NCBI GenBank assembly: GCA_030141605.1
Contig: JAQGDQ010000017.1
Location: forward strand, 1 to 64,000
Direction of reading: 5' to 3'
DNA length: 64,000 bases
DNA from: Tubiluchus corallicola
Lineage: Eukaryota > Priapulida > Priapulimorpha > Priapulimorphida > Tubiluchidae
This document shows, piece after piece, positions 40,101 to 46,100 of this stretch. The notes beneath the pieces are model-generated. The model was not told the DNA's origin and did not search any database. It saw only the letters and a list, made by a program, of their open reading frames with translations. The first letter of the stretch is position 1, and each line of letters starts with the position of its first letter. Both the position numbers and the translations under genes were made by a program.

Positions 40101-43100
40101 AGGCCCTAGCTGTAAATCATGGGCCCCAGTCTATGTTTGTTTTATCACCTTTAGAAGATGACTCCATCTGAGGAGGCCTCCTATATTTCGTTAGCTTCGA
40201 GGGTCCCAAAAGGTCATAATATGACCCTGCACATATCTGTAATACATAGGGCTAACCAGTCCAGAATGTCTAATTCTTGAAAGCGTGAGCACAATAGATG
40301 TGTTCAACTGTTGAGTTCAAGTCCTCATCTCATTTCAAGTTTTCAATATCTCGGTTGTTATATTTCATTTAGCCGTTTCAAGCAGTTAAAGCACTTGTTT
40401 TCATGGTGAGCAAATAGCTAAATGAAAAATGTTGTGCCTTACTCACTCACTGAACTGAATACAGTATGCATGGTGTGTCATTATACACTACATTATAAAA
40501 CTTTGCTTAATTTTTTAGCTGTTAGCTGTGAATGTATTTTGCCAGTTGGCTTTATGCTACTTGGGATACAGTGAAACAAAAATAAGACGCATAATTTATT
40601 CGTATAATGTAAAATTTAGATTCAAGTTCTCTTCCACATTTTATAAAAGTTACTTGCATACACCTCATTTGAGACTGAATTTGTAAAAATTATAGCGATT
40701 AAAAATAAAAATAAATTATCAACACACATGAGCAAAATATAATTTTTGAAAATAGTACAACACATAACTTTCAACTGTTACAAATAAGTTAATGAATATA
40801 TTGTCATAGTTTGGCAGTTGACACTATATAGTGAAAGACTTTCGTACTCTTGCTATATCTTTTGCACGTGCATACATTAGTTAGTTTAGCTAACCAAGCG
40901 ATTGTAAGTTCTCTATAAAATAGGCACACTGCATATCCCTGTCCAACTTTTCAACGGCATCCCATACTTTTAAAAATTTTCTATGGATTTCTTCAACTTT
41001 GCTTGCGTCATTATTGTGCTTTGCATACAGTTTTGGTTGCATAGCTGACCAAATCGTATTGGATTCTGGCTCCAAAATTCCATTGTTGGTAGGAATGTTA
41101 CCAGTTTTTAGATGGTTTAGGATACCATAAGCACACAAGTACTTGGCATAAAGTGTAGGGAGCATCTGAAGGTCTGAATGCTTGGCATGTTGTATTATAT
41201 TCACATCTTCCAACATGGGACTAGGCAGGCATCCGTTGCTACAACAACTAACTATATACTCAAACATGCTAATAAGACGCTCTTGAAACTTATCTGCAGT
41301 CCAATCTGCATCATATTTATACTGCTCAATTTCATTTAAAAATGCCACTTTAGAAACATATGAATCTATTAACATATCTGCCATGTATTTCAACTTTATG
41401 TACAAGTCAGTCACACTAATGCCTTCTGCCCTCAGCAAGGCATCAGTAGAGAACACTTCGTCTCGCATTTTTGCTTTTATGCTCGTTATCAGCTGTGCTG
41501 GCGGGACATTTTGCGAGTACAAACGATAGTCCAGGAGAATTTTTGCAAGAATGGCTACCATCTTCCGCTCTTTGCTCAGGCTTTTAATTAACTGTGTTTC
41601 AGCTGCTGCACATGAGATGCACCACAGCAAGTTTGTATCTTTTCTATGAGAACTTGACGGCTTCGGCACTAAGTGAAAATAGTCAAAGCCAGTTGGGTAC
41701 AAACTTGTTGCATTTGGTGGTTTTGTGCAAATTTCTATTGCTGGTGATATGTCGATAGATACGGGTAGCATGCCATATTCCTCTGTTTCAATCTTTAACT
41801 TGAAACAAGTACAAATTTTGTTCCATTGTACTATAGCTGAATTGGTATTTGGGATTATTCCTGGAACTTCTTCCCGAAGTACACTTGCCGCAGCCTGACA
41901 AAGGATCTCAGTAAATGCTTCTTTAACTGTTACTTTTAAGTACCGTTCATTGGTAGCAAAGTCTGACCAGGATGTAAGAACATTTTCTTGAAGTTTAACT
42001 TTGACTGTGCCATTTTCTTGAATCTCGTAGGACTCACAGTTGGCACTAAACACAGTCAATACAAAGAAAAAATCAAATTCATCGGGGAAACCACATTTCA
42101 AGTTGCAGGAGCTACTTCCAATCATTATGCATTCACAAGCAAGTGATTCATCTATTTCTTTGACTTTTTCACATATTCTGGCTGCTAGGTTATGCACTTT
42201 GCTGTGAATTTTCTCTATATCAGATGAATGCTGTAACTTGCCCATGCCCGGCATGTGAAGCAGTTTTTCAAATAAGTTGTGCTTGGTATTGTCTTTCACT
42301 AACTGTCTGATGTTAGTCAGAGATTCATCAGTTACAGGAAGATATTGACTTTCCCAATCAGACAAGTGTTGGCATTGCAGATCTCTGAAATACTGATAAC
42401 TAAGAAAACTGCCTAAAGATTTCCTGTACGGTGTTGTGTCTGCTTTACTGTTTCCCATGTCGAGGCACATGCTATATGCAGTCTGACCGTTCTTATTTTT
42501 CACTGAAGTATCACAGCTTTTTAGCAAGAGATAAAGCACTGTGTTGCTGCGACCGTACTGTGCAGCCCAGTGCAATGGTGTCCTTCCCAAGTGTGAATCT
42601 TGTGCATTAATATCTGCGCCATGACATAGTAACAAGTTCACAGTATCTGTATGACCTTTTCCTGCAGCAAAATGCAGCGGGGTTATATTATTCATGCAAG
42701 ATTTGTTCACCTCTGCACCACCATCTAATAAGATCTTGCATACCTTTGTATGGCCATGCATTGCAGCACGTTGTAGTGTAGTGATTCCAAACTTTGGAGC
42801 ATTAAGATCGATTCCCATGGCCACAAATGCAGACACTTGCAATTCATCACATTCGTCTACTGCTTTAAACAAGTTGTTCAATTCTGTACTGTAGCCATTT
42901 TCGTGTTCTTCAGCGCGATGGAGTTGGAGTGTTTCCGTATTAGGTTCGGATGGTATTCTGCAGATTAAATGCTTCGCACCTTCGCGATGACGATCGTGAT
43001 CTTCTAAAACCAGTTGCAATAACATTTTTCCGTATTTGAAAATCGATTCCTCCTTTGATGGCTAGTCTAGATATTTCTTCCAGCGAAAAGTTTCATTTAT

Positions 43101-46100
43101 TATCTGCAATTCTTGCATTGAACACATTACTTTAAATGCCAAAAAGAGATCTATAACAGCATTAATGTTACGTGTTACTCGATGCTTAATTCAGCTTAGG
43201 CTTCTGTTCACGCAACTCTCAGCGTCTGGTTTTATATATGTAACGTTTCTTGAATGGTCACGTGGTCATGTGGCAATGATGATTCCCGAGAAGCTGAATA
43301 CGTGCATGTACCAACTGACGCGTACGTGTGTGCGAGTCTGGCGCTGCTGCGTTAGCATGAGTCATGTTTCTATGGCTGCTGACCTGTTTAACATAAAATG
43401 ACATAATTCAATAGCTATTTTTGGTTTCTCTTAATTATATTCTTTTCCATTTTCTTGGTCGCTTTATAGATGCAGCTTTGGAAAAAAACTTGTACAGTTA
43501 AGAAATATTTATATAGCTTGCATTATTCAAAGTGTATAAGCTTAAGGAATTTTACAGAACAATTGTGATCGTCAGAATGTTAGCTTCTTCATTAATTATC
43601 TGCAGTTCCTAAGCCGAAATTTTCAATTTTTGCAAAATTAAGACAAAGGAAAATTTCTGTTATTACTGCCACTGTTCTTATATTACTCATGTGAAAAACA
43701 GTGTAGTTAATCGTTAGATAGTTCTATTTATTTAAGAATAATGATTTAATGTCATTAAAAAGTATAGAGTCTTGAAATACTTCATTCACATTATTTCCAT
43801 TCGGTTTTCTAGGCTTGTTAATTATACATGTATATGAAGCAAAAGATGGAAATGCATAATTTTCAACTTTATATTTATTATCGTTTTCTCTTCAGATATC
43901 TATTGTTTAAATAACAAATTGCAGTTCATGTAAAATATGTGCACTTACCGGCTGGCCATGCATTAAATTTTGCTTGTTCGGGCGGCAGTAATCACTAATC
44001 ATTTGTCATATGATGGATGCCTTGTGATCAGTTATCACACAACAACGTCTGTACTCACTTAGAAGTTAGAACTCTACATCCTGTTTGTTTGTAAGCAGCG
44101 GCTCTGTGTGTGTGTGAGAGCAGTGGTGCAAAAAGTTCTAAATTTAGAATAAATACACTAGCGGCAACAAAAAACGTGCAGGCAAGCCTGCCTCTCAACA
44201 GTACTTAGCGCTTCACCTAGCAAATAGACGCACGAGGGCCAGTAATTGAACCGAAACCAAAAATTTTTTGCAACACTATGGCATCATCATCTCCGTCCAC
44301 GCGGGAGTGGGTGGTGTGGGAAAAAAATCTCTGCCATAAATAGTTAAACCTCGAAATTCGAAAGTATGTTTGATTGTTTGCAATGCATTTTGTTATTCAA
44401 AAAAAACATTTCATGTCCAACTATTATGGCAATTATGTTTAGTGCTCATAAGACAGTTTCACTTTGCTTTAGCATCTTAAAAACACCCATTCTTAAAAAC
44501 ACCCAGTCAGAAACTTTTGTATGCTCGTTACGTTCCGATTGCGGTTTTATATTCTCATGTAAACATTTCCTAGGAATGAATTTAATAACAAAATGTACAA
44601 GGCATCTTGCTCTTGCCACACGTTAGCAACTGAAAACTAAGATACTTTTTAAATACTGTGCAATTTTTTTTCCTGTTAGTTTACTAGTTCCACATTGACT
44701 TGAATTTATATTTTTGTTTTCTAGGTTCCAAAAGCTTGGGTAGAGCAAGGAGTGAAAATCGTCGATCCAAATAAAAAACCGGAGAAAAAATTAGAACCTT
44801 TTGTTTTTCATAATTGGAAATTTCGACTTAAACCAAAGGGCCGGGAACACCCGAACTGGCACGACAAACCGGCATATCTTTTCAACACTACTACCAGGAT
44901 TTGTGGAGGTTTGTCGTTGCAGTTGCATCTACACATTTATCTGCTTATCATAGGTTTCTTCCTTCACTGTGACTTTTTTGTGCAAGTGGAAGCTTATTTG
45001 CACTTTTTTACTGCATTTTGTCCAAGAGACATTATAGATTGACTGTGAAGAATGGTTTAAAATGCAAGTCTTTGCGTAACGTCTTGAGTGTACATTGCTT
45101 TCTGTAAAAATGTTCTTCTAAAACTACTGTGCTTTTTTGAACTTTTCATTTTAAGCGGCAGAGTAGCCTGAACTTGCTTGGATTAAACCATTCATTTATG
45201 AAGACATTGTTTTCTTCTCAGCCTTTGCAAATTTTTCTGTGAGATTCCGTTTCATATGTAAAGTTCTGTGCGTCTGCGTAAAGCTGTTTGTATCCATGTA
45301 AAATCATCAGATCATGTGCAAGTTATTTGTACACAAATTTGAAGATTTGTGGAAAAGATTTTGGCAATCAGTTGGTGAATATTTAGTGAGATTGTTGCTA
45401 CTTTATCTTTGTACATATTTTGTACATCATCACAGATGTATTTTATAACTTATCGCTCTCTTTAGTGAAATGAATGGCAATTTGAGGCAATCATACAACC
45501 AAAGATCTGCTGTTTAGTTAATCGGTGTAGTTTGCAGGCATTACTGTACTTTTGAAAGCTGCAGATATACATGTAAAAGCTTTTGAATGAGTGCAGTAAA
45601 ATGGATAGCAATAATTATTTTTTTTTCAGATATTCAAATGGAAGGGGCTGTTGTTTATTTTTATTTGCAATTTATGTGCAATTGTGTAAACAATATAGGC
45701 CCAAATTATTGTTCTTGTAAGACCTTATTTTCTAGGCCTCACGTTGTATAATCTAAGAGCTCTCTCTAAGTTTATTTCATAACCAATTGCACTTTGGTGC
45801 AAAGGCTAATAAAAAAATCTTAATTCCTTGTACTTCAATCGAAAATTAATGCTAACTACTATCAAAAGTGAAACTAATATCAAATATTTTGAGAAATCTT
45901 AATTAAAGGTCCCTTTTAACTGATGTGCATAAACGTCACGATAAAACATTATCAGTTTCTTTTCAAGTCGCTTGTAGAATATTGCGAATACAGAAGTGAT
46001 AGATATAGCTATTTGTAATTATAATTTTCTAAATTCTATATATTATTTCTGTGTTAGGTGGTCCGCAGGCTCAAGTAATAGGCAAAGCTAGTGCCAGGTA

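Follow-up and report, generated by a model that had tools for sequence, protein, structure and literature searches.

The 64,000-nucleotide stretch of Tubiluchus corallicola DNA analysed here (hereafter the window) carries on its reverse strand a gene for a protein in which ankyrin repeats are joined to a Mab-21 nucleotidyltransferase resembling cGAS in predicted fold and active site. Judged from sequence, this gene is one of a large family of about forty in the same genome, a circumstance that the preliminary description of the locus had missed, and in the youngest members of that family the contact face of the ankyrin groove carries a signal of diversifying selection. The architecture itself has been known since 2023: ankyrin-fused cGAS-like receptors (cGLRs), which the preliminary description had likewise overlooked, appear in the consulted sections of Li et al. 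(2023, PMC9980059), as do expansions to many cGLRs and the presence of several STINGs in one genome. Unlike the present work, those sections contain no selection analysis of the repeats, and the selection signal on the ankyrin groove of cGAS-like fusions appears to be what is new here. The reading that we favor, with a probability of roughly 0.6, is that the window protein would be a cytosolic cGLR-like sensor in which target binding by the ankyrin repeats leads to a cyclic nucleotide perceived by STING.

Domain organization of the window protein

The features of the gene and of its product are collected in Table 1. The preliminary description had claimed an intact one-frame fusion of at least three ankyrin repeats to a Mab-21 enzyme with GS at residues 303-304 and the acids E316, D318 and D425; both points are borne out, the first by Pfam and the open frame, the second by the presence of each residue at its position and by alignment to the cGAS sites. 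At the base composition of the window, the random expectation for a frame of 711 codons is ~10^-23. The best ankyrin family reaches a Pfam E of 1.4e-24, and both enzyme domains score above their curated cut-offs of 24.1 bits: Mab-21 (PF03281) with 47.3 bits at residues 308-481 and Mab-21_C (PF20266) with 38.4 bits at residues 553-621. Ten Pfam families are listed for the protein; two ankyrin side models and one TPR model stay below their own cut-offs, and OAS1_C is absent from the list, with which a distant relation would be compatible.

Table 1. Features of the ankyrin-Mab-21 gene and its product, in window positions.
Feature	Position	Strand	Basis
Ankyrin + Mab-21 nucleotidyltransferase frame	40890..43025	(-)	Single open frame, ATG to stop, 711 aa
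Ankyrin domain, residues 47-217	42375..42887	(-)	Pfam; AF2 helix pairs from 47 to 217, pLDDT mostly >90; repeat scan
Nucleotidyltransferase core + Mab-21_C helical lobe, residues 250-648	41082..42278	(-)	Part matching cGAS/cGLR structures
C-terminal helical hairpin, residues 649-711	40893..41081	(-)	AF2 helices 655-669 and 674-710; beyond the cGAS-aligned part
GS motif, residues 303-304	42114..42119	(-)	Frame translation; family alignment
E316-F-D318, catalytic acids one and two	42072..42080	(-)	E316 = 42080-42078, D318 = 42074-42072; alignment to solved cGAS
D425, third catalytic acid	41751..41753	(-)	Family alignment; alignment to solved cGAS
TATA-like box	43233..43238	(-)	~210 nt 5′ of ATG; consensus match only
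AATAAA	40595..40600	(-)	~290 nt 3′ of stop codon; consensus match only

The repeat scan delimits three canonical 33-residue repeats (starts at 77, 110, and 144, spanning 77-176), whose groove positions include F79, I81, M89, I114, F119, L146, W153, and Y157; such a partly hydrophobic face would suit protein binding. In the enzyme, GS, D-E-F-D and S-V-D of the profile built from 44 family members align with GS, N-E-F-D and S-V-D of the solved cGAS chain 7lz3, and convergence of E316, D318 and D425 on one site is supported by this alignment together with the match of the whole predicted fold.

A large family in the same genome

The 343-Mb assembly (2,344 contigs) was searched with Mab-21, Mab-21_C and two family proteins, and members with frames of at least 390 residues were kept. 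The window gene and 43 further members make up 44 aligned single-frame relatives, a count that is a lower bound because the searches scored only the best candidates, and that is approximate as a number of genes, since the assembly contains exactly duplicated contigs and alleles may account for a few of the close pairs. Over the enzyme domain the other members share 27-33% identity with the window protein. Nevertheless S304, D318 and D425 occur in all 44 members and G303 and E316 in 43 each (Asp replacing the former in L006 and the latter in L032). Pfam finds ankyrin in 41 of the 44, leaving three without it, and our own repeat scan likewise detects no repeat in three (L008, L026, and L028). 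By comparison, 87% of the cGLRs in the consulted part of PMC9980059 are without an extra signalling domain, and in Stylophora pistillata, whose ankyrin-fused cGLRs share with the present family a Mab-21/cGAS-type enzyme joined to ankyrin, many copies and several STINGs, 3 of 42 carry further domains, for example ankyrin or death domains.

Left out of these counts were two fragments (L051, L052), a MAB21L-type gene (L010), contig copies with the same score (C2262, C2263, C1935, C2101, and C1480, the last judged by match scores alone) and short or broken matches on C221, C547, C1996, C1235, C2025, C2082, C2272, and C2100:68367; L066-L068 are not part of the family set, L042 was taken only as far as its first stop, and two half domains (L049, L050) were omitted from the tree. 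In that tree, built from the members in this genome and L010, the window gene forms a lone long branch within a 21-row set (support 100/91), which pairs it with a 20-row clade containing a recent burst of 14; its position is unsure, because long branches meet there.

Several other origins and affinities were considered and set aside. Transposon-borne copies were rejected, since the two sets of three contigs concerned (L053-L055 and L056-L058) are 100% identical over pieces of ~7 kb or longer, flanks included, and are read as assembly redundancy. A fusion to a retroviral protease was suggested by a single RVP match among the 44 members, which most likely reflects the phrase LLDSGAD of ankyrin repeats, found in L043, L047, and L048. 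Names of bacterial ankyrin effectors and of MzaA in NCBIfam are due to the repeats, with scores far below the cut-offs, and as to relatives in viruses or prokaryotes, 59 and 60 pattern matches were obtained, none of them confirmed by tblastn.

Two kinds of related sequence lie beside the family. L066 and L067 (C865, C134) are further Mab-21_C frames that continue into Gly/Ser-rich tails, with no ankyrin in the frames inspected, and on their sequence are a separate small group. A tandem array with a unit of ~0.95-1.2 kb occupies L069 1-6001 (C221:66000-72000; matches from ~62.5 to 75.3 kb); its units contain short frames in which the first half of the nucleotidyltransferase (GS, D-E-F-D) survives in decayed form, and the S-A-C-G-x-K phrase is repeated further inside, so that the array resembles a satellite made of gene fragments.

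Predicted fold and class assignment

The enzyme part was aligned with the 43 relatives and folded by AF2, which gave a mean pLDDT of 94 and a pTM of 0.91. In the full-length model (pLDDT 89, pTM 0.86) an ankyrin stack beginning at residue 47 is followed by the enzyme and the C-terminal hairpin, with residues 1-42 at pLDDT <50. Comparison of the predicted part at residues 250-711 with cGAS and cGLR structures, as proposed in the preliminary description, indicates a cGAS-type fold. The top Foldseek match of the enzyme-part model is oyster Cv-cGLR1 (8gjw; best E 1e-13), and mammalian cGAS is also among the best. The best 50 VIA-align rows have Z of 26.7 to 29.0, and none extends beyond model residue 400 (= 649); cGAS and Cv-cGLR1 occupy the top (Z ~29, 2.8-3.0 Å, ~320 residues), and MAB21L1 is not among these 50, which is no evidence of its absence from the full list of matches. 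Against solved chains, the family profile matches cGAS, in both lobes, with an E of 6.5e-15 and cGLR1 (8gjy) with 1.3e-13, and then MAB21L1 with 9.8e-9, so the family lies nearer to cGAS and cGLRs than to MAB21L1.

Among known systems, human and mouse cGAS share with the window protein the fold, the GS motif and the E/D/D triad, whereas the window protein is acidic, lacks the zinc thumb, and has N-terminal ankyrin repeats and an extra C-terminal helical hairpin. The resemblance to Cv-cGLR1 (Z 28.9 over 323 residues, 18% identity) is confined to the matched stretch, oyster residues 292-633. Absence of an evident cGAS zinc thumb had been noted before, and it extends to the family: the H-x-CC-x-C pattern occurs in none of the 44 enzyme domains, and the four alignment rows inspected contain no thumb-sized insertion.

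Predicted structural homology to cGLRs or CD-NTases, one criterion of PMC9980059, is provided by the pLDDT of 94 and the Z to Cv-cGLR1 given above. The cGLR motif printed in the same paper, as far as it was consulted, is h[QT]GS X8-20 [DE]h[DE]h X50-90 h[DE]h, and the window protein departs from it in two details while possessing the GS, an 11-residue spacer, E-F-D-F and I-D-I. The residue before GS is I (V in 40 and I in 4 of the 44 members) instead of Q or T, which is not a strict criterion because the solved cGAS chains 7lz3 and 7kxs also have V, and the gap between D318 and D425 is 106 residues (70-115 in the family), above the 50-90 of the motif. On account of these two details the protein is called cGAS-like, on the strength of fold and active site, and is not classed among the curated cGLRs.

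Diversification of the ankyrin groove

Pairwise Nei-Gojobori ratios were calculated for 15 hand-picked, overlapping pairs and for 12 disjoint pairs that a greedy procedure chose among 42 members. The ratio exceeds 1 in the ankyrin part of 10 hand-picked pairs and in the enzyme part of 2; the corresponding figures are 8/12 and 1/12 for the disjoint pairs, over which the pooled ratio is 1.07 (0.94-1.23) in the ankyrin part and 0.59 (0.52-0.68) in the enzyme part. As contact set we took the six repeat positions randomised in designed ankyrin proteins. By our own count, positions 2, 3, 5, 13, and 14 of this set are borne out by residues named in the consulted part of PMC3602593. Over 2,263 in-register codons from 10 of the 12 pairs (L006-L019 and L021-L026 gave none), contact positions have a ratio of 1.74 (1.23-2.61), vs. 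0.96 elsewhere, and none of 20,000 random six-position sets reached the amino-acid divergence observed at the contact positions. The excess belongs to the recent clade, where six pairs give a contact ratio of 2.77 (1.80-5.01); the four informative pairs outside it show none (0.82, 0.47-1.58). Other exposed positions have a ratio of 1.12 (0.73-1.96), not significantly above 1.

The codon models M1a and M2a were compared on 13 recent paralogues with a script of our own and naive posteriors. A class of sites under positive selection is favoured in the ankyrin part (2dlnL 342) and, to a lesser degree, in the enzyme part (199); when each part is cut into four blocks with a tree for each, the 2dlnL is 12.7-116.5 and 15.0-75.3, respectively, whereas the highest value in 20 null simulations of the ankyrin part is 7.65. 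With a posterior above 0.95, 50 of 384 ankyrin-part sites are selected, 35 of them among the 271 sites lying in repeats, where they comprise 23 of 51 contact positions vs. 12 of 220 others (Fisher 3e-11; four of the 12 fall at repeat position 10). In the enzyme part 37 of 414 sites are inferred to be selected, several with patterns resembling gene conversion; since gene conversion inflates such tests, the selection totals are perhaps too high, but gene conversion alone would not place changes at contact positions. Throughout these 13 paralogues the catalytic residues are fixed while the ankyrin contact positions diversify.

Misaligned repeats were rejected as a source of the signal, as none of 71 repeat pairs has more than 12 amino-acid-changing codons. 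Counting against the signal, the contact ratio falls to 1.36, 1.11, and 0.99 when only repeats with no more than 8, 6, and 4 such codons are kept, values that are biased downward because the restriction conditions on few changes. The preliminary description had supposed that sensing, localisation or regulation runs through the ankyrin repeats; sensing is made plausible by this diversification, within the scope of the recent paralogues from which the results come. The window gene is without a close paralogue for a test of this kind and would, by kinship only, behave like its recent relatives. A full-text literature search, mostly without subscription papers, returned no report of selection on the ankyrin repeats of cGAS-like fusions, and the consulted portions of PMC6321704, PMC9334734, and PMC13319465 describe no such fusions.

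Proposed mechanism and alternatives

The window protein may be pictured as an innate-immune sensor in the cytosol that works like a cGAS-like receptor. Its ankyrin groove would bind a target that is most likely a protein, and would thereby switch on the attached Mab-21 nucleotidyltransferase; the enzyme would then make a cyclic di- or oligonucleotide, to be read by STING receptors of the same animal. A sensor with changing targets is suggested because the catalytic core stays constant while the groove diversifies in the youngest members, and the simplest account would be that the groove meets changing targets and the enzyme sends one kind of signal. In plant NLRs and other variable-repeat receptors, exposed contact positions of the repeats diversify and the signalling domain is conserved; plant NLRs differ from the present family in having leucine-rich rather than ankyrin repeats, and here a nucleotide synthase would be the output. 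More tentatively, and at somewhat less than even odds, the family may constitute a germline repertoire in which the variable ankyrin groove, not the enzyme surface, reads protein ligands and all members share a cyclic-nucleotide output to STING. If so, this many-membered protein-sensing family would be a nucleotide-signalling counterpart of NLR receptors. The diversifying contact face of such a large ankyrin-fused family hints at the ligand site and at the probable nature of the ligand, a protein, and the paralogues that differ most at groove positions offer a testable set.

Activation might still come from nucleic acid, as it does for cGAS and fly cGLR1, with the ankyrin repeats only placing or restraining the protein. 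The cGLR ligands identified in the consulted part of PMC9980059 are indeed dsDNA and dsRNA, and four of the 44 members have a pI above 8.5, the range given there for nucleic-acid-sensing cGLRs. However, the enzyme part of the window protein has a pI of 5.9 and a net charge of about -8, and 40 of the 44 members stay at or below 8.5 (values computed on the enzyme domain, not the whole protein); according to the same part of that paper some acidic cGLRs may sense something else, and what acidic, self-active ones sense is left open there. The acidic enzyme part and the lack of a zinc thumb make nucleic acid less likely as the ligand, and the selected ankyrin sites of the recent relatives lie on the contact face, so that we regard this alternative as unlikely.

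The nature of the product bears on a second alternative, in which a protein brought in by the repeats is the substrate and receives a nucleotide from the enzyme, with no free second messenger. Ankyrin grooves do hold partner proteins (PMC8229355 and PMC3602593, in the portions consulted), the triad by itself leaves the product unspecified, and the part aligned to cGAS stops short of the C-terminal hairpin. Against this stand the two-lobe fold, which matches second-messenger synthases, and the STING exons of the genome, where the search proposed in the preliminary description yielded 22 STING_LBD matches on 10 contigs; nucleotide transfer to a protein is accordingly judged improbable. The exons of L065 carry SYYLGY, RNYGRNSVYK, and EFATPL, those of L059 close variants thereof, and one L065 frame matches solved STING chains with an E of 1.9e-13. 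An innate-immune second-messenger synthase, as first suggested, is therefore in keeping with fold, family-wide triad and STING exons, synthase activity being the predicted part of that suggestion. Separately, five loci (L060-L064, on C2192, C235, C414, C2160, and C1844) hold pairs of STING ligand-binding exons on the same strand, ~1.4-2.3 kb apart, each exon of the L063 pair scoring ~40 bits; they may represent several copies or alleles of a STING that has two ligand-binding domains. OAS1_C gave no match in a genome search run without a positive control. Searches of the genome, whose genes point to an animal, for innexin, connexin, mollusc haemocyanin and COX1 likewise gave no match, COX1 alone having been run with a positive control.

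A non-catalytic Mab-21 protein with a scaffold or developmental role, like MAB21L1, is quite improbable. MAB21L1/2 belong to the same Pfam family, the activity of the window enzyme is a prediction, and the genome has a single-frame gene of MAB21L1/2 type, L010 (C162:342500-345500), which aligns over its full length to solved MAB21L1 (5eog, E 7e-199). That gene, by contrast, lacks GS, and Q replaces its third catalytic acid (aligned by eye), while 43 or 44 of the 44 members of the window family keep each catalytic residue despite their low identity to the window protein, and the family profile is weaker against MAB21L1 than against cGAS. That the window gene is a dead or dying intronless copy, as its intronless frame and the fragments or in-frame stops of some relatives might suggest, is highly improbable given 711 open codons, intact key residues, TATA-like and AATAAA signals of its own and, with a next-best genome match to its enzyme part at 33% identity, no close source copy.

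Surroundings of the window gene

Nothing in the other scanned content of the window suggests a defence cluster. An Rfam scan of the window gave no match and, of five other long frames scanned, two had no match, one is a sulfotransferase, one a galactosyltransferase, and one has weak FG-nucleoporin similarity below the cut-off. In the presumed 5′ leader of the window gene (43060-43165), four upstream ATGs are present, at 43162, 43127, 43118, and 43096.
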